Assembly (NCBI GenBank): GCA_963971425.1
Contig: OZ020524.1
Location: 6,124,417-6,188,416 of the forward strand
Source of the DNA: Bryoerythrophyllum caledonicum
Taxonomy: Eukaryota; Streptophyta; Bryopsida; Pottiales; Pottiaceae
DNA length: 64,000 nt
Direction of reading: 5' to 3'
In this document: positions 2,491 through 61,622 of the stretch, in pieces
How positions within the stretch are numbered: the first letter of the stretch is position 1
Layout of the letters: each line of letters opens with the position of its first letter
Translations under genes and position numbers: made by a program
The notes under the pieces: generated by a model
What the model was told of the DNA's origin: nothing
Database searches by the model: none
Seen by the model: only the letters and a program-made list of their open reading frames with translations

Positions 2491-3753
2491 CTACATTACT
2501 TGAGATTCAACATCATCAAGTGGTTGAATAGGTGGTTTTGCAAGAAAAAAAGCAAAAATGATGATATATGCATATCCCAATGTTGGTATAATTTGACCAA
2601 TTCTAGTGCTTACTCTATCTGCAATAGCACCTTGAATGGGGGGGAGAATTGCACCACCACCAGCACCCATCACTACCAAACCTCCTGCAGTCTTCGTATT
2701 TTTCCCTAAATCTTGTAAAGCTAATGTGAAGATTGTTGGATACATACATGACTCAAAGAAAAAGAGTACCATAATACATATGATACCTGAGAGTCCATTA
2801 AGTCCAACTGAAAGAGCACACAAAATAGTACACATGATGGCATAAACTCCCAAAATATATCTAGCTTGAAAGAACTTCATGAGAAATGTAGCAAAGAAGC
2901 GGCCAATTGTAAAAAGAATCAAGGAATAAGACAAAAGTTGAGAAGCTTTTGAATCGGAATGTATACCATCTTCATTTGCCAAGTTGATGAAGAAAGTTGC
3001 AACCGTGACTTGTGAACCAACATATAACCACTGCGCCAATACTCCGCCAATAAAATGCTTTTGCTTCAAAAGAGGTATTGTTGAAAGATCAGAATCCTTT
3101 GACATCATTTCATCTGTAATCTCTGGTAGAGTTACAAAGAAGAAGCCAATGGCCACGAGAAAAACTCCACATGCAATTCCAAGATAAATATATTTGACTG
3201 AAGTCAAATTACCTGCATGTTCCGCATCAAAAAATAACTTTGATGCAATTAAAGGTCCCATAAAGCTACCCAATCCATTGAAAGATTGAGAAAAGTTTAA
3301 CCTGAATGAAGCTGATTTGGGATTCCCCAAAACTGTGACATAAGTGTTTGCTGCAACTTCAAGGTTTGACAATCCACATGCTATAATAAACGTTGCAACA
3401 ACAAATCCTCCAAAAGTCTTAAGTTGGGAAAACGGCCAAAAAAGAAGTGCTCCAATGACATAAAGCATAAGTCCGACGAGAATAGAGACCTTATACCCAA
3501 ATCTCTTCACAATCCGCATCCCAACAGGTGGAAAGACGATATATGCTCCAAAATAAGCTACTTGAAGTCCCGTGGATTTGAGCTTAGACAAATGAAGAAC
3601 CTCCTGGAAATGCTTGTTTAAAACGTCAAGTAATCCATAAGCAAAACCCCATAAAAAGAAGAGAATGGTCACCAATGCGAGTGGAACAAACACCTTTCTC
3701 CCCGTTGGAACAACACTTGTTGAAACATTTCCAATTGGTGCTCCACCTGCCAT
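2491..3753 (-). CDS. FHS-family (L-fucose permease-like) MFS sugar transporter
   Basis: Predicted 420-residue membrane transporter of the fucose-galactose-glucose:H+ symporter (FHS) branch of the major facilitator superfamily, probably importing a hexose with protons. The signature FFLWGFAYGLLDVLNKHFQ lies in the first membrane helix, and about 12 hydrophobic helices follow, with a soluble loop near LPEITDEMMSKD between the two halves. The start is set at 3753: the longer open frame begins with TTG and has no upstream ATG before a stop, while an intron-like 3' end (GGGTTTAG) closes 5 bases before this ATG, so translation most likely starts at MAGGAPIGN. Coding is in one exon to TAG. The family is common in fungi and bacteria and patchy in plants, so ancient transfer is possible. 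No defect is seen. Confidence 0.85.
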   Translation of the reverse strand: MAGGAPIGNVSTSVVPTGRKVFVPLALVTILFFLWGFAYGLLDVLNKHFQEVLHLSKLKSTGLQVAYFGAYIVFPPVGMRIVKRFGYKVSILVGLMLYVIGALLFWPFSQLKTFGGFVVATFIIACGLSNLEVAANTYVTVLGNPKSASFRLNFSQSFNGLGSFMGPLIASKLFFDAEHAGNLTSVKYIYLGIACGVFLVAIGFFFVTLPEITDEMMSKDSDLSTIPLLKQKHFIGGVLAQWLYVGSQVTVATFFINLANEDGIHSDSKASQLLSYSLILFTIGRFFATFLMKFFQARYILGVYAIMCTILCALSVGLNGLSGIICIMVLFFFESCMYPTIFTLALQDLGKNTKTAGGLVVMGAGGGAILPPIQGAIADRVSTRIGQIIPTLGYAYIIIFAFFLAKPPIQPLDDVESQVM

Positions 3754-4137
3754 CGCACCTAAACCCCCCAAAAAGAACCACAAATATTTTACATTTGTTA
3801 AATTAAAAAATTCCCACAACTTCAATTTCTCAAAAATTCCATAAATACAATCCTTTCATCAAAGTAAAACCTTCTTCAATTTCCACAGATTCCCACAAGC
3901 ATGCCAAACATGACCATAACAACATAAAACAAAAAAACAAAAAAAAAACGAATGAAATTCTCTCCACTCACAATGTTCCAATCAACAACCAAAAGAGAGA
4001 GCTCAGAAAGAGAAAAAGAAGCTCACCTCAAGATCAGCACAACCAAAAGAGAGAGCTCAGAAAGAGAAAAAGAAGCTCACCTCAAGATCAGCACAACCAA
4101 GAGAGAGAGAAAGAGAAAAAGAAGCTCACCTCAAGAG
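3754..4137 (-). promoter_or_regulatory. Probable 5'UTR exon and intron of the transporter gene
   Basis: Minus-strand reading shows a strong 3' splice site at 3759 (pyrimidine-rich tract with GGGTTTAG, and a branch-like TTTAAC upstream). It also shows three identical candidate 5' splice sites (CTTGAG then GTGAGC) whose last exonic bases are 4027, 4081 and 4130. Splicing from 4027 to 3758 would remove a 268-base leader intron. Confidence 0.5.
3984..4137. repeat. 54-bp tandem repeat, about 2.8 copies
   Basis: Copies begin with AACCAAAAGAGAGAG near 3987 and 4041. The third, at 4095, has lost about 5-10 bases. Each copy carries GCTCACCTCAAG, which reads on the minus strand as a consensus-like 5' splice site. 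Purine-rich on the plus strand. Confidence 0.9.
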
Positions 4138-4140
4138 CAC

Positions 4141-4808
4141 AGGTAAGAAATGAAGCTGCACACACGTCCAAGTGAACACTGGAGGAGGGGAATTATAAGA
4201 GTCACTACTGAAGTGGTAGTGTGGATGTAAGCAAGCAAAGCCTATGGAGACTGCGATGGCCCGTGCTCAGCTGTTTGGAGGTGGTGCTCCAGTCAGTTGT
4301 GGTCCTGTCAATGGAGGTTGGAGTCGCGAGTGTGAGGTGCTTTCCCTGCGGCGAGCACGTTACTTGTAAGGCTAGCTCAGTTGAGTTCCAGAGTTTTTGT
4401 GTAGCGTACTCTTGGGAGTGGTGTCCGGTAGAGAGCTTGGGTTCAAGATAATTGGCTTGTGAAATGATGTCGTTTCACGTGCACAGTACGTTACGGGTCA
4501 GACGAACATGGCCCTTGAGCAGACTGGTTCCTGGTTGTACAGATTCTGTCGGAACTACTTGTTGACTTGAGCTTAAAGACCACCAAGCTCTTCCACACTT
4601 ATGACAATTGTAGTTGAGTGGCTCTTCCACATGTGAGAGTAAACGAATCACAAAGAAATGAAAGTTGATGATGCTACAGCACCGTGAGGAACCATGAGAA
4701 AACATTAGATTCATGAGTGTCCATTGCCATGGCTGCCATTGCCCATGAGGACACAAGTGTTGGTTGGCCACAGATGTTTGAGGTGTCTTTTCTCTTGTTT
4801 AAGCGACC
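4141..4808. other. No recognised gene
   Basis: Open frames here (for example minus 4475-4771) show no known domain, and the missing C-terminal part of the dioxygenase pseudogene was not found in it. Confidence 0.5.
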
Positions 4809-4831
4809 AGGGTTAGGGTTTAGGGTTCAGG
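4809..4831 (+). repeat. Short interstitial plant telomere-type motif
   Basis: About three units of TTTAGGG/TTAGGG (AGGGTTAGGGTTTAGGG). It lies exactly where similarity of the neighbouring dioxygenase to its family stops. Such short tracts also occur as telo-box promoter motifs, so a break-repair origin is only an inference. Confidence 0.7.
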
Positions 4832-5552
4832 AGCAAGAGCGCGACCCATCTCGTAATGATGCTTGGCATCTTTGCCGCTCTGAATGGAGAGCTGGAACAC
4901 GGGGATGTCCGCCTTGGGATATATGAGCATCAGAGGCGTCCATGTCCCGTGGTCAATCCCTCTCTCGCTATCCTCCACCACGTCCTTGAATCCTGCACCT
5001 TGGAGCAGAGACTTCGCTCGCCGCGCCACATCTGGCGCTCCTGGAGGTGTGTGTTCCAACTGCCATAAACCAAAAGGGAAAAAAAAATCCATAACCACTT
5101 GGCAACTACCAGGTGTACAGTCACGTCTATGGCAAAACAATCTACACTTCTTATTTGCACGAAAATCATTTGTATATCCTCAGAGAGTGAACTCTCTAGA
5201 AAAAGAAGAAACTGGAGCTAAATTCTTGGTGCAGAACTTACTTGGTGTAGCTCAGGAGGGAAGTTGTAGAAGTCATGAATGGTGCTGTTCTTGCTGACAA
5301 CGTTAACTGCCGGCACGTTAGTATCCCAATGCGCTGAAATCGCTAGAGTAGCCTTCGGCCTGATCCAAAATCATGAATGAAAACATTAGAAACAGTCTCA
5401 ATCTCAAGTATCAGGTTGAGATTCGTACATTGTCTGAATGTTTCAACACTCAGATTTCTGTTCGCCTAACTTACTTACCTTGTGGTGTAACGCTTGGTCC
5501 AGTTCTAGTAAAAGGTCCGGATGGGGGTGTCTTCCAGGGAGTCATGGATGAC
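4820..5552 (-). pseudogene. DOPA 4,5-extradiol dioxygenase (DODA/LigB family) pseudogene
   Basis: Three exons with matching phases read on the minus strand. Exon 5552-5479 gives a peptide like the N-terminal SIDD..PAR.F..W region, exon 5359-5242 gives RPKATLAISAHWDT and FPPELHQ, and exon 5059-4820 gives LEHTPPGAPDVARR, GIDHGTWTPLMLIYPKADIP and QLSIQSG. These match class III extradiol ring-cleaving dioxygenases, which open catechol rings such as that of DOPA using Fe(II). Junctions are GT-AG (AAG/GTAAGT, CAA/GTAAGT). The first exon carries an in-frame TAG at 5507-5505. The protein stops at ALAPEP, so the C-terminal third, including the distal conserved His region, is missing. No first exon with HGSP was found. 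It is therefore a truncated copy unless the assembly is wrong here. Confidence 0.75.
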
Positions 5553-6695
5553 CTAGAAAGAAAGATGCCACACAAGACCATAAACCTACAGTACTATGAA
5601 ACAACAAATCTGCTTCAGACCGGTTATCACAATCTCAGATTCTACAATCACACCGTTTACACTGCAGAAATTGGGGTACAACTAGAAGCTTGCAAAGAAG
5701 AGGAAGACGTTAACTGCCTGAGGTACAGCTTACAATCACAGAACGTCACCGATATTATGATAATCAATTAGTTGAGGCTCAGGCATTACATATTCAATCT
5801 AGAAGCTGCGAGTCTCCACAGGCGACTTCGAGTTAAAATCAATCAAGCGTAGCATCGGTGGCAGCTACCCAAACGTCTTCGCAAGTTGTGGGTTCTAGAA
5901 AGCACTGTTTATGCCACCGACAGTGCTGCAAGTGTGTTGTCCGCATATGAAAGGCGTGTGTGGCCCCGATGTTTATCAACTAATGTAATTCTTCTTGCTC
6001 TACTTTGGCTTACAAGGGCATGGTCGAACACTGGACCAGAATCTTCTCATGTGAGGTGGGCAGAATGTAGGCGTCAAGTGTCATAATGCGTCTGCATGTC
6101 GATGTAGAGCTTGCGATCGGTTCTAAAATGATGCAACTGAACACTGAGACATAACCAGTCCTTGCGAAAAGTGATTTCGAACATGATTACAATGAGGTAT
6201 AAATTCCAGATAATATGTAAGCATGTTTCAGGTATCCTACTCACTTTCTTAAAGTGAATAATCCTCTTGAGCATTATTGTCTACTGGTGTCGCTTGACAA
6301 ACCAGACCATATCATCGTGGATGCATTATGTCGTTTTCCTGCAAGTGAAGAAGGATGTTAGTTTCTACACAACTTGTGCAACAAAAGAGAGCTGTTATAA
6401 TGGTAAATATAAACTTCCACATGGTAGAATTAACTCGGAACAAATAACAACCAAGGTGAATTCAAACCTGTAAATTGAGCACGTCGTTGACGAGTGCTGA
6501 AATGAGAGATGCCGGCTTCCCAACTACAAAATACCAGAGCACTATCCCTCCAGTATGTAATGAATCATCAAATGCGTTCTAAATACGAGTCTAGGGGCTC
6601 TTTAGTCTACTCTAACGGTTACCTGTTGGCAATGGCCATTCTTAGAAACAAGGTCGAACAGATTTCCTCATGAACTATACAGTCTAGTTTCCTGT
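5553..6695. other. Spacer between dioxygenase pseudogene and XTH; nothing recognised
   Basis: Probably holds the 3' UTR of XTH near 6500-6695. Open frames at 5373-5771 (plus) overlap the pseudogene's exon in antisense and are not credible genes. Confidence 0.5.
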
Positions 6696-20584: not shown

Positions 20585-21407
20585 TTTGCAAATCTTGGGC
20601 ACGTTCCCATGGTTGCAATTTATGTTTGAAATTCTTGAAATTTTGTTCAAATATGCAAGAAGACAAAGCGTACGTGAAAGTATAATTTTTTTTCTCATCG
20701 GGCTTATTAAAATAAAAAAGTTATGCCAACTTAAAGAAAAAATTGTCAAGTGTGGGTACGTCAGGCAACTCCAAAAACTTTTTCTAGGACACTAGTAAAT
20801 TTGAGATTTTCAGTACTAGCAATTAATATTATTTACATTCATATTGTCAAAAAATATTTTTTGTCTTTAGTGAAAAGATGCATTTTATCCCAAGCCAAAG
20901 ATTTTCACACATTGCCAGACATTGTTGGGCAAGGAACCAAAAAAACTTCTTCTTTTCCATAAATCTTTATATTTTTCACTTCATGTGTTTTCAATTACAA
21001 GACATGGTGCAAATCTTCTTATTGACCGTTTGGATTATCATTCTAAAACATATTATTTTGTTTCCAAAAAATTAAATCGTGAATTGGCACTTTTGGAACC
21101 TCCACTCATTGCACATCTTTTTAAGTATGCTACACCCCTTCCCTACCTAAAAAATTGGTGTACAAGAAGTTAATATCATGATCAACATGACGATATAAAT
21201 TTGTGGCTTGTGTAGTGCAAAACTTTGACACAACGTGAAGTCAAAGTCTATTGATCCACTCAACGTAGGGATTTATTATGTGTTAAATGGGATCCTAACG
21301 TCAAAACTTGAAACAAATTTATTTGTTTCCTTCCTTACTCATTGCTCTAGAATTAATAGTTTTGAAGTGTTTTTGGTGTGAAATTGTGAAGGAAATTTAA
21401 GGATTAA
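20585..21407 (-). mobile_element. TTAA-family non-autonomous element, reverse orientation
   Basis: Shares a long diverged stretch with 54338-55321: TTGCAATTTATGTTTGAA, then ACATTGTTGGGCAAGG, then GCTACACCCCTTCCCTACC. It ends in AGTTTTGAAGTGTTTTTGGTG and TTTAAGGATTAA, the complement of the left end of the copy at 60091. Its other end was not found, so the start is approximate. Confidence 0.55.
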
Positions 21408-35190: not shown

Positions 35191-35744
35191 CATAATTTTT
35201 AATTTAAACAATTATTTATTTATTTCTTCTACTGTCCAACATAAAAATTAGAAGTATTGCAATTTATTATATATATATATATATATCATACTACTAAAAT
35301 CATAATCCGCGCAGTGAACCACGCAGCGATCAATTGCGCAGTCAACTGTGTAATGAACTATAGGAACGGTGCAGTCAACCGTGCAGTTAATTGCACAGCC
35401 AACCGCGTAGTGAATCATGTTACCTTTCTTTCAATAAAGTTTGTAATATTAAAACTACATTGGACTAATGCGTTGCAAAGCATTAGCTTGAGTTTTTGGG
35501 TGTGACAAATTTGAATTTGTGTGTTGCAATTTGTGCTTTTGATTACAAATTTGACGTTCAAAATATTTTTTGAGTTAAGCACTAAAAGATTGAACTGTAA
35601 ATTATGAGTTGTAAACTTGGAGTGAAAAAGTTGTGAAGTTGGAGTTGTGATCTTGGAGGTTGGCATACAAAGTTGGAGTTGCAAAATTGCATATTCGAGT
35701 TGTGGAGATTGAAATTACAAGTTTTGAGGTGAGATTGCAAGTTT

Positions 35745-35930
35745 TGAGATTGTGATTGCAAATTGAGTTTGTGGGTGTGTGAATTTGAGATTGTAATTGC
35801 AAATTGAGTTAATGGGCGTGTGAATTTGAGATTGTAATTGCAAGTTGAGTTTGTGGGTGTGTGAAATTGAGATTGTAATTGTAAATTGAGTTTGTGGGTG
35901 TGTGAAATTTACATTTGTGTGTTGCAGTTT
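35745..35930 (+). repeat. 41-bp tandem repeat in the left palindrome arm
   Basis: AAATTGAGTTTGTGGGTGTG recurs at about 35760, 35801, 35842 and 35883, exactly 41 bases apart. The right arm has only about two units, so the array changed length after the arms formed. Confidence 0.85.
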
Positions 35931-36411
35931 GTGTTTATCCAAAATAAATTTGGAACTCTTAATTACAAATTTGACGTTCATAACATTTTAAAAATTCCAT
36001 GTTAAAATGCAAAAAATCTAAAACCTGATTTTTTTTTTCTATTCTATTCTATTATATTATTAAAATTCATGAATAGGTTTCAGAGACATATTTCTATTTT
36101 ATGTAGATTGTTGTTACCTTTCTTTTTTAATATTTTGTGATATAAAAACTACATTAAAATGGTTGACTAATGCGTTGAACTAATGCGTTGAACTAATACA
36201 TTATATATACATATATACTAGCAGTTGGCGCTTGCTTTGCAACACATTAATTCAACCATTTTAATGTAGTTTTTGTAACACAAAATATTTAAAAAAAAGG
36301 TAACAACAATCTACATAAAATATAAATATGTCTTTGAGACCTATGCATGGATTTTAATAATGTAATAGAATAGAATAGAAGAAAAAAAATAGGTTTTAGA
36401 TTTTTTGCATT

Positions 36412-37344
36412 TTAACCTCTAAAGGACCACGACCACTTTCACTCTAAAACCAGTCCAAAACTGCCACTGCCAAAAAGAGACATGAAAATCACATTTTAAA
36501 GTGAATTTTGGATTTTCAACCGTAAGATCTTACAATAGACTTCCATATAAACATGCCATCTAATTTTGGTTGCAATCCACCGCAGGGATTGATAGATTTT
36601 AGTGTTTAAAGTCAAAACAATGGTTCAAGTTCTTCCCTGCGTTGAGTAGATCAGCAGACTTTGACTTCACTTTGTATCAAATTTTTGCATTGTACAAGGT
36701 CTAAATCTTATACCATTGTCTTAAGCATGATGTTATTTCCCAACACACCAATTTTTAGAGGTTAAAAAGGGGTGTAGCATATTCAAAACAAGTGTGCAAG
36801 GAGTGGAGGTTCAAAAATTGCGATTTCACGTTTTATTTTTTTGTGAACAACGTATGTATTCAAATGATAATCTAAACGGTCAATAAGAAGGTTTGCACCA
36901 CATATTGTTGTTAAAAAAGTAAAAAGTGAAAAATATGAAGATCTCTAGGTTTTATGTAGAAAAGATGAAGTTTTTTTCCCCCGTTGCCCGACAATGTGTG
37001 AAAATGTTTGACTTGGAATATAATGCCTTTTTACACTAAAGACAAGATTTTTTTTTGAAAATTTCCATCAAAGGAAATATTCTTTATGTGTGTGAAAAAT
37101 CTCAATGTCAATAGAAACTTTTGTCAAAAATTTTGGAGGTGCCCGGTCTCCCCACTTTTGGCTTTAAGTGGTACTAACTTTCAAACCACAAATCCAAAAA
37201 ATAAAATAAAAATATTTCCACAAAGCTCTTATCAGAGGCAATCTAGAATAAAAAATTCAATTAAAAAGGATTTTTTTCTAATTTTAGGAACCTGCCCAAA
37301 ATCAGAAATCCCCTCGAAGGAGACTTTGGTCCTTTAGGGGTTAA
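36412..37344 (+). mobile_element. TTAA-family non-autonomous element, with empty site in the other arm
   Basis: Flanked by TTAA at 36412-36415 and 37341-37344. Ends CCTCTAAAGGACCA and TGGTCCTTTAGGGG form a 14-bp imperfect inverted repeat. It lies in the right arm of the palindrome. The left arm (about 35985-36015) has the same sequence without the insert (TTTTGCATTTTAACATGGAA on the complement), which defines the insertion and its TTAA duplication precisely. About 925 bp, no coding. TTAA targeting and CC-termini are typical of piggyBac, and Kolobok is the alternative. Confidence 0.88.
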
Positions 37345-38069
37345 CATGGAATTTCAAAAATGTTTTGAAAGTCAAATTTGTAATAAAGAGTTTCAAATTT
37401 TTTTTGGATAAACACAAATTGCAACACACAAATGCAAATTTCACACACCCACAAACTCAACTTGCAATTACAATCTCAATTCCACACATTCACAAACTCA
37501 ATTTGCAATAACAATCTCAAAACTTGCAATCTCACCTCAAAACGTATAATTTCAATCTCCACAACTCAAATATGCAGTTTTGCAACTCCAACTTTGTATG
37601 CCAACCTCCAAGATCACAACTCCAACTTCACAACTTTTGTACTCCAAGTTTACAACTCATAATTTACAATTCAATCTTTAAGTCCTTAACTCAAAAATTA
37701 TTTTGAACGTCAAATTTGTAATCAAGGGCACAAATTGCAACACACAAATGCAAATTTGACACACCAAGAAACTCAAGACCCTAAATTTCAAAACCGCGCA
37801 ATAAACCACACAATAATTAGCAATTGGCGCTTGCTTTGCAACGTAATAGTCCAACCATTTCAATGTAGTTTTTATTTTACGAGAAAAAAAAACATGATTC
37901 ACTGTACGGTTGACCGCGCAATTAACTATGCAGTTGACTGTAGCGTTTCTATAGTTCACTGCGTGGTTCACTGCGTGGTTCACTGCGCAAATTATGATTT
38001 TAGTAGTATGATATATACTAAGTATCAAATTCATGCGAGAAAAAAATCAAGTTGCAATTACTTAAGATG

Positions 38070-49701: not shown

Positions 49702-50447
49702 CTTAACTCTTAAAAGCCCGGGACAATTTCACACCAAAATTGCTTCAAAATTGTTGATTATAGTGCAATGAGTAAAGTAGGAAATAAAACCTTATATTCA
49801 TCATTTTGACCATAGGATCTCCATTAAGACTTACTAAATAACATACTCACAGAATTTAGACACTTTGACCGCATGGATTAAAAGATTATAGTGTTTGAAG
49901 TCAAGAAAATGATTCATTTTCTTTCCTACGATTAGTGGATCAACAGACTTTGACTTCACTTGGTATTAATTTTTGCACTACACAAGGTCTAAATCTTTTA
50001 CCATTATGCTAAGCATGATGTTAGTTCCCTATACAACAATTTTTAGAGGTAGAGAAGGGGTGTCCGAAATGTGTAAAAATGTGTAAACACCGCTTGTCCG
50101 AAATGTGTAAAAATGTTTGACTTGAGTTAAAATGTTTTTTTACACCAAAGACAAGATTTTTTTACGTCTACAAAGAAAGTAATATTCTCTACATGTATGA
50201 AAAATCTCAATGTCAATAGAGACTTCTAGCAAAATTTTGGAGCTGCCTGAGTCCCCATTTCTAGATTTGAGTGGTACTAACTTTCAAACTATGAATCCAA
50301 TAATAATAATAAAATATCTAAATGGAGCTCTTATTAGGGAAAATCTAGTATAATAGTTTTTTTAAAAATAATGTTTTTTCGAATTTTAGGAACCCGCCCA
50401 AAATCCAAAACGTACGCCCCATGTACACTTGGGCTCTTAGGGATTAA
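49702..50447 (+). mobile_element. TTAA-family non-autonomous element
   Basis: TTAA at 49702 and 50444 flank the ends CTCTTAAAAGCCCGGG and TTGGGCTCTTAGGGA. The interior shares GACTTTGACTTCACTTGGTA, TAAGCATGATGTTA and TTTTTAGAGGTAGAGAAGGG with the copies at 36412 and 60091. About 746 bp, no coding. Confidence 0.8.
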
Positions 50448-54337: not shown

Positions 54338-55321
54338 GCTTTCACAAATCTTCGGCATGTTTCCATGTTGCAATTTATATTTACGAGTCTTGAGAGTTTG
54401 TACAAAGATGCAAGAATACAAGAGGTACATGAAAATATACTGTATTTTTTATTCTTATCGGACCTATGGAATTTTTTTTGCCATCTTAAATAAAAACTTT
54501 TTGATTGTCAGCACGTTGGTCAACTCAATTTACTTTGCTAGAGCACTCTACTAAATGTGAGATTTTGATAATTAGCAAGTAATATTATATTCTTATATAT
54601 TGTAAAAAAAATCCTCCTGTTAAAATATCTTACCCCGGAGTAAGATATTTTCACACATTGTCACATATTGTCACACATTGTTGGGCAAGGTATCAAAAAC
54701 ATTTTTTTTTTCACATAAAATTTAGAGATCTTCATTTTTTTTTCTTCCAACATGACATGTGGTATAAACATTCTTATCGATTGTTTAGACTATAATTCCA
54801 AAACATGTTAAGTTCACAAAAAAATAAAATGTGAATTGGCAATTTTGGAACCTTCCTTGCACAATTGTTATGAATATGCTACACCCCTTCTCTACCTCTA
54901 AAATTTGGGGTACAAGGAACTAGTATCATGCTTAAACTCTAAAGGTGCCGGAAAATGAAATACAAACTGAAAAAGGGAAGCCACACTTCCCCTTGATACC
55001 ATCATGGATTAACATGATGGTAATGAATTAAGACCTTCTCTAATGCAACAATTTGGCACCAAGTGAAGTAAAAGTCTGTTGATCCACTCAACATAAGGAG
55101 GAAATTGAATTGTTTTTTCTACCTCAAACACTATAATCTTTCAATTTGTGTGGTCAAAGTTTATGAAGTTTTGTGAGTGCATTATGCAATAAATCTTGAT
55201 CAAGATCCTATGGTCAAAACTGGAAATACAAGTTTTTGTTTCCTTCTTTACTCATTGCGTAAGAATCATCATTTTTGAAATGTTTGTATGTGTGAAACCG
55301 TCCAAGAAGTTTAGAGGTTAA
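54338..55321 (-). mobile_element. TTAA-family element, reverse orientation
   Basis: Runs parallel to 20585-21407 (TTGCAATTTATATTTACGAG, CACATTGTTGGGCAAGG, ATGCTACACCCCTTCTCTAC, GTTGATCCACTCAACATAAG) and ends AGTTTAGAGGTTAA at 55321. The far end is not resolved. Confidence 0.55.
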
Positions 55322-60090: not shown

Positions 60091-61049
60091 TTCAACCCTT
60101 AAAAGGCCCAAGGCATTTTCACACCAAAAACACTTCAAAACTGCTCGTTCTAGTGCAATGAGTATTGAGGTAATCGAAACCTTTTATCACTACATCTAAC
60201 CATAGGATCTAAATTAAGACTTATTCATGAACGTCCTCACAAAATTTCATTAGCTTTGACGGCACGGATTGAAAGATTTTAGTGTTTGAATTAGAGGAAA
60301 TTGTATTTTTTCTTCCCTGTTTTGAGTGGATCAGCAAACTTTGACTACGCTTGGTGTCAAATTTTTGCACTACACAAGGTCTGTAAACATTACCATCATG
60401 TTAATCATGTTGTTATTTCCTTGCACGCCGATTTTTAGAGGTAGAGAAGGGGTGTAGCGTATTCAAAACAAATGTGCAGGAGTGGAGGTTCAACAGCTAC
60501 CAATTCACGTTTTATTTTTTTGTGAACTAAATATGTTTTGGAATGATAATTCAAATGATTGATAAGAAGGTTTCACCACATCTTGTAGTAAAAAAAACAA
60601 AATGTAAGAGGTATAAAGATCTCAAAGTTTTATGTGGAAAAGATTTTGAAGAAGTTTTTTTGGCACCTTGCTCGACAAAGTGTGACAATGTGTGAAAATG
60701 TTTGACTTAGATTATTATGCTATTTTCCACTTAAGACAAGAGATTTTTTTGACAATATGAAAGCAAATAATATTATTTGCTAGTACTGAAAATCTCACAT
60801 TCAATAGATTGTCCTAGGAAAAGTTTTTGGAGTTGCCCAATGTGCCCGGTCTCCCCATTCAAAATTCAAAACACTATAACTTTTTCACAAAATGTTGGAT
60901 TTAGGAAAAAATTAGACTCACATTAAGCTTTTAGCAGTTTCCATCTACACTAAAAAATTTAAGAAAAAAATGTTATAAATTGACACCATAGGAACCTATC
61001 CAAACCTTCAAGAGTCCCCTGAGGGGACTCTTGGGCCTTTAGGGGTTAA
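60091..61049 (+). mobile_element. TTAA-family non-autonomous element
   Basis: The left end reads TTCAACCCTTAAAAGGCCCA and the complement of the right end TTAACCCCTAAAGGCCCAAG, an inverted repeat of about 20 bp with one side of the TTAA changed. The interior matches the copies at 36412 and 49702. It is 959 bp with no coding. Confidence 0.82.
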
Positions 61050-61262: not shown

Positions 61263-61622
61263 TGACCCCTAAAGTTCCTTAACAATTTTCCTCAAAAACT
61301 AGTTCCAAACTGCCTCTTTCAAAAAGAGGCACAAAAATCACATTTTTGAGTGACATTTTGGACTTTATGCATAAGATCTTAAAACTTGTGTTTCATTGGT
61401 TTAGAGAAGTGCCTAGGCTGCCCAACATCCCCATTTCTGACTTTGAGCGGTACTAACTCTCAAACCATAAATCCAAAAATAACAATAATAATTCTTCCAG
61501 AAAGCTCTTATCAAGGAAAATTCTAGTATAAAATTTCAAAAAAATATATTTTTTTCAAATTTTAGAAACCTATCCAAACTCGAAATTGCCCTCCCAAGGA
61601 GATATGGTCTTTTAGGCGTTAA
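61263..61622 (+). mobile_element. Short TTAA-family element (internally deleted)
   Basis: Left end TGACCCCTAAAG; right end TCTTTTAGGCGTTAA at 61619-61622. It keeps both flanks of the longer copies (AACTAGTTCCAAACTGCC and AGCGGTACTAACTCTCAAAC) but lacks most of the middle, giving 360 bp. Confidence 0.7.

Follow-up and report, generated by a model that had tools for sequence, protein, structure and literature searches.

The window, by which we mean the whole stretch of 64,000 nucleotides of moss DNA that was analysed, contains at 36416-37340 an element of 925 bp. It is inserted in one arm of a palindromic repeat and bordered by TTAA on both sides, and no transposase gene was found in it. The features of the locus are:

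35280-38017, no strand: palindromic repeat that hosts the insertion, arms of about 1 kb, a repeat family in its own right
36002-36005, no strand: empty target site, a single TTAA in the uninterrupted palindrome arm, from comparison of arm with arm
36412-36415, no strand: left target-site duplication TTAA, read from the window sequence
36416-37340, plus strand: very probably a non-autonomous piggyBac element (MITE), 925 bp, with near-full-length copies and with ends shared with a transposase-bearing element
36416-36429, plus strand: left terminal inverted repeat CCTCTAAAGGACCA, 14 bp
37327-37340, minus strand: right terminal inverted repeat CCCCTAAAGGACCA, 14 bp, one mismatch to the left repeat
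36416-36612, plus strand: left region (element 1-197), of which element 50-197 matches bp 35-182 of C1:1664943-1673624 at 74.7%; both elements have the same type of 14-bp end
37140-37340, plus strand: right region (element 725-925), matching the last 203 bp of C1:1664943-1673624 at 84.8%
37341-37344, no strand: right target-site duplication TTAA, read from the window sequence

The interval 36412-37344 named in the original prediction is thus the element with both its duplications, and the predicted ends of CC(T/C)CTAAAGG type were confirmed as the 14-bp pair CCTCTAAAGGACCA / CCCCTAAAGGACCA. The same prediction had placed the insertion in one arm of a palindrome whose other arm is uninterrupted, and the pairing bears this out. 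The stretch 36001-36416 pairs with itself at 85.7%, 35886-36005 with 37341-37460 at 92.5%, and 35280-35852 with 37410-38017 at 77.4%; the uninterrupted arm, read on the reverse strand, is ...GCATTTTAACATGG... with one TTAA. A genome search with the palindrome arm gave at least 61 matches (from the best 40 of 1,736 first-look candidates), and among the matches listed 35 (rows 2-36) cross the insertion site without the insert of about 930 bp. Two further copies of the element, at C1:31869411 (L085) and C14:14748188 (L076), lie inside other copies of the palindromic repeat at different positions, with flanks 93-94% and 75-78% like the window, respectively. The window holds uninterrupted counterparts of both sites with one TTAA each, which makes two further empty sites. 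The palindromic repeat is dispersed in the genome and sometimes stands in tandem, e.g. at C1:1850871-1853573.

Copies of the element and choice of target

In the 437-Mb assembly of the host genome the exact 14-bp end occurs 7,000 times (3,533 + 3,467) against 40 times for a reversed control pattern, and TTAA followed by the end 5,910 times against 0 for the reversed control. The bases before the other ends are [ACG]TAA in 257 cases and something else in 833. Different sequences come after the 14-bp end at different copies, and several subfamilies thus share it. Fifteen facing pairs 0.8-1.0 kb apart were seen among the first 100 listed ends, i.e. about 85 elements per 100 ends, and a very rough extrapolation from one stretch of contig C1 suggests around 6,000 elements in which one or both ends are exact. 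Thirty ends taken in order along C1 (L009-L038), some of which are segmental duplicates of one another, have an exact TTAA in 25 cases (16 of the 18 plus-strand ends, 9 of the 12 minus-strand ends). Other C1 ends around 310-434 kb come back, with the same flanks, at 1,373-1,494 kb.

A similarity search with the window element yielded at least 43 matches (from the best 40 of 5,876 candidates), and 40 of these, counting the window copy, are close to full length. These copies are 923-928 bp long, and the 39 others are 94-98% identical to the window copy. TTAA stands on both sides in 37 of the 40, on the right in 39 and on the left in 37, the three exceptions being CTAA/CTAA, TCAA/TTAA and TAAA/TTAA, and the base immediately outside the TTAA is variable. 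The window flanks, the empty sites and these copies agree that the element selects TTAA and that exactly these four bases are duplicated, as had been claimed. Among 45 full-length copies, 40 of which (window copy included) were picked for their likeness to the window copy, the mean pairwise identity is 94.9%; the remaining five come from C1, are in part duplicates of one another, and show 91.8-92.0% identity to the window copy.

A transposase-bearing partner and other piggyBac elements

The original prediction had proposed a search for a longer copy with the same 14-bp ends, and such a copy names the family. With the protein of locus L041 as query, a piggyBac transposase was found at C1:1669884-1670921 (66% identity across residues 133-483 of the query, E 2e-153); an exact 14-bp end lies on either side of it. 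The partner so delimited, C1:1664943-1673624, is 8,682 bp long and has CCCCTAAAGGACCA at both ends, with TTAA as its left and TTAT as its right flank. Sequence near each end of the window element has a match in it (74.7% and 84.8%), with order and orientation preserved, and at E 0.001 it has no match to the middle of the element (198-724). No additional TTAACCC or GGGTTAA was found inside it. The C1 partner is decayed: its transposase is frameshifted, with similarity across 3430-5976 in overlapping frames, and its right duplication reads TTAT.

The coding region of this C1/C6 family is present at five places, on C1, C11, C6, C2 and C9, and the best pieces of the latter four are 89-95% identical to C1, while the next matches are at about 72%. 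The C6 copy (C6:21033531-21035494, 95% identical to the C1 partner DNA) has a stop-free PF13843 match within a frame of 618 aa, and its right end, the same 14 bp (...TGGTCCTTTAGGGG) followed by TTAA at about C6:21037836, is 94.6% identical to the C1 copy over the last 37 bp. A piece of the left half is found some 84 kb distant, and this copy may therefore be broken up. The ends of the C11 and C9 copies were not found in the stretches L110, L111 and L113; the one exact 14-bp end seen in L110 is that of a different MITE-like stretch and is no partner terminus. Another pair of exact ends on C1, 7.67 kb apart (955058/962717; an inverted copy lies at 1157693/1165351), does not qualify as a partner, since it is two MITE ends around what is, by our reading of the frame, a cyclin-like host gene. 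The stretches C1:955000-962800 and C1:1157600-1165400 are an inverted segmental duplication, 99.5% identical and about 200 kb apart. Element 163-729 is 78% like DNA beside the transposase genes L041-L045, which we do not take as proof of direct descent, since MITE-like blocks adjoin those genes.

The genome contains many more transposases of this kind. A profile search with PF13843 (DDE_Tnp_1_7) gave at least 120 scored matches, all above the cut-off (116 of 305 candidates were scored), and 47 of the 120 listed are stop-free, although a stop-free match does not prove an intact gene and some genes make up two of the 120 matches. No match to the profile was found in 14 control genomes, one of them a Synechococcus, a set that is no control for eukaryotes. 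Three transposase-bearing stretches have TTAA at both ends: L096 (4,933 bp including both TTAAs, with the terminal repeat CCCTTAAACGCCCAGG matching at 16 of 16 bases), L097 (3,960 bp) and L098 (4,159 bp), the last two with 12 of 16 end bases matching. So has C10:18464557-18470105, which is 5,549 bp long, carries a piggyBac transposase and has the termini CCCCTAAAAGCCC / CCCCTAAAGGCCC. Its relative on C3 has the same end points and is 97-98% identical, with the left flank TATAA rather than TTAA. A further family is 99% identical between C3 and C162, and its right end is ...TCTTTTAGGGG followed by TTAA.

Compared with proteins of known structure, the L096 frame matches piggyBac (6x67, E 3e-31) and piggyBat (9c0f, E 4e-28). 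Three aspartates, D471, D558 and D676 in the L041 frame, align with those of 6x67 and are invariant in all five aligned transposase frames, none of which is from the C1/C6 family; we take them to be the catalytic triad. Their counterparts in the C1 partner are visible as DE, DN and VD motifs in separately read frame pieces, and a cysteine-rich C-terminal part is invariant in the five aligned transposases as well. The C-terminus of a more distant piggyBac-like transposase, 33-37% identical to the query transposases, is found at C1:953558-954850 (L020); it was rejected as the partner, as its right end (...GACGCTTAGGGG followed by TTAA) is that of a different family. The exact 14-bp end was not found in eight right flanks of other transposases (L101-L108, where L101 is the first part of the flank of the C6 partner copy), and the right end in L102 is ...ATTTTAGGGG followed by TTAA.

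A probable piggyBac MITE in a moss

The window element is, with a probability of roughly 95%, a non-autonomous piggyBac transposon (a MITE), presumably mobilised by piggyBac transposases from other loci of the genome, because a longer copy with identical 14-bp ends carries a piggyBac transposase. Its terminal repeats begin with CCC or CCY (CCT on the left), as is characteristic of piggyBac ends. A transposase encoded elsewhere would recognise and bind terminal repeats of the CCCCTAAAGGACCA type, cut the element out and insert it into a TTAA, the four bases being duplicated. For piggyBac in general, hairpin intermediates and footprint-free excision have been described (PMC7351741). We infer that the transposase which moved the window copy was supplied by the C1/C6 family, or by one with nearly identical ends, and that some of the transposases may be active today; the MITE itself would have derived from that family through loss or replacement of the middle.

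It is possible, though we consider it the less likely course, that other piggyBac families, such as C10/C3 with the end CCCCTAAAGGCCC or C3/C162 with CCCCTAAAAGAC, mainly move the MITE and that the core CCCCTAAA is sufficient for this. Each is represented by several copies with stop-free matches, the copies are highly similar to one another, their ends have the first 8-10 bases in common with the MITE end, and the right end of C3/C162 is similar to element 870-925 (72% in 58 columns, E 0.07). Against this stands that, among the ends seen, all 14 bp are shared by the C1/C6 family only, and that a match near both ends was seen in the C1 copy only. The wider idea, that several native piggyBac lineages, perhaps still mobile, jointly move thousands of MITEs through the shared end core CCCCTAAA, is put forward tentatively; it is suggested by copies 97-99% identical, stop-free transposase matches and elements flanked by TTAA. 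If true, this would mean that a land plant has a piggyBac system active in nature.

The original prediction had left the choice between piggyBac and Kolobok, and the first of these stood. Kolobok elements likewise duplicate TTAA, and a Kolobok transposase could thus account for the target site, but the transposase between these ends is of the piggyBac type in both partner copies examined, which makes a Kolobok element very improbable. Still less credible is a Stowaway (Tc1/mariner, TA) or Tourist (PIF/Harbinger, TAA/TTA) MITE whose TTAA is a local appearance: one locus alone cannot separate TTAA from T-TA-A, and PMC10004981 describes both kinds of MITE from plants, but the fourth base should then be free, with T at about its genome frequency, and the T seen in 5,910 of 6,167 ends preceded by NTAA argues against TA or TAA targeting, as does the piggyBac transposase of the partner with the same ends. 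A hAT element, with its 8-bp target duplication, was rejected, as the flanks of the 40 copies show no repeat beyond TTAA.

The type element of the superfamily, piggyBac of Trichoplusia ni (structures 6x67/6x68), has the TTAA duplication in common with the element described here. Terminal repeats that start with CCC (CCT at the left end in the window) are likewise shared, and so is, in the related elements of the host, a DDE_Tnp_1_7 transposase with three conserved aspartates. The host is a plant, the window copy is short and without a transposase, and the transposase-bearing elements are 4.0-8.7 kb in comparison to 2,472 bp for the T. ni element as given in PMC10140906. The piggyBat element of Myotis lucifugus, the source of the homologous transposase 9c0f, comes from an animal and is distant in sequence. 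The angiosperm PiggyBac MITEs of PMC10004981 are likewise short elements assigned to PiggyBac; here, the assignment is made through elements of the host genome itself that have the same ends and carry a transposase.

The kind of element is already known, and piggyBac is already listed for plants, so the remark in the original prediction that reports of such elements from plants are rare needs some caution. PiggyBac is among the superfamilies that PMC4438587 gives for all groups studied, land plants included, and it is counted among angiosperm MITE superfamilies in PMC10004981 and among plant DNA transposon superfamilies in PMC10794571. It is known from plants also according to PMC10140906 and PMC10813416, and for a fern PMC6890710 counts 1,230 PiggyBac repeats. 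The genome paper of the moss Pohlia nutans (PMC9247546) reports 23.68% DNA transposons, and the word 'PiggyBac' is absent from its main text; another moss paper (PMC10619864) was set aside as a piggyBac report, as its abstract merely uses the word 'piggybacking'. No description of piggyBac in bryophytes was found in the literature searched, which took in few subscription papers and no repeat library such as Repbase, and we do not claim that there is none. The present case stands out by its abundance, by how many of the transposase matches are stop-free, and by a matched pair of MITE and partner in a moss.

The piggyBac transposon is widely used as a tool and is best known from animals. The present genome offers a branch of the superfamily from the plant side, with transposases that are possibly adapted to plants. 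It also offers a test of how MITEs and transposases are paired. The case shows, further, that assignment of a plant MITE flanked by TTAA can be made through its partner and not through the target site alone.

Old relatives in the window and further observations

The window holds several old relatives of the element. A second, more diverged MITE-like element occupies 60096-61045 (TTAA at 61046-61049), with TTCAA before CCCTTAAAAGGCCCA... on the left and ...CTTGGGCCTTTAGGGG followed by TTAA on the right; its ends resemble those of the 5.5-kb C10/C3 family (CCCCTAAAGGCCC), and a portion of the interior shows 75% identity to the element at 36416-37340. At 61266-61618 (TTAA at 61619-61622) there is a relative of 353 bp that has only stretches like element 1-120 and 734-923, and its flanks are ATGA on the left and TTAA on the right. 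Fragments 75-83% identical to the interior of the element are found at 20843-21271, 49868-50405 and 54660-55145. An open reading frame at 41329-41973 matches 'Integrase core domain' (PF24764, E 2e-11) and is possibly another mobile element.

The host genome also gave 58 light-harvesting matches, which mark it as that of a photosynthetic eukaryote. On C7, C4, C10, C1 and C3 these include pairs of equal score that lie on opposite strands and are separated by a few kb to tens of kb, which suggests inverted gene duplication or conversion. Three of the light-harvesting proteins indicate by their best structural matches that the host is most likely a moss. For the light-harvesting protein L114 the first match is 9vfj, followed by 7xqp and 8htu, and the best four for L116 are 6l35, 7xqp, 7ksq and 8htu. 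The structure 7XQP is from the moss Physcomitrium patens (PMC13066549), and 7KSQ and 8HTU are PpPSI (PMC10005731). The best matches of the protein L115 are chain 9 of 7xqp (E 1e-93) and of 8htu (3e-93), followed by 9vfj (LHCI-2) at 2e-82, with the others shown at 1e-66 or weaker; chain 9 of these two structures is presumably Lhcb9.
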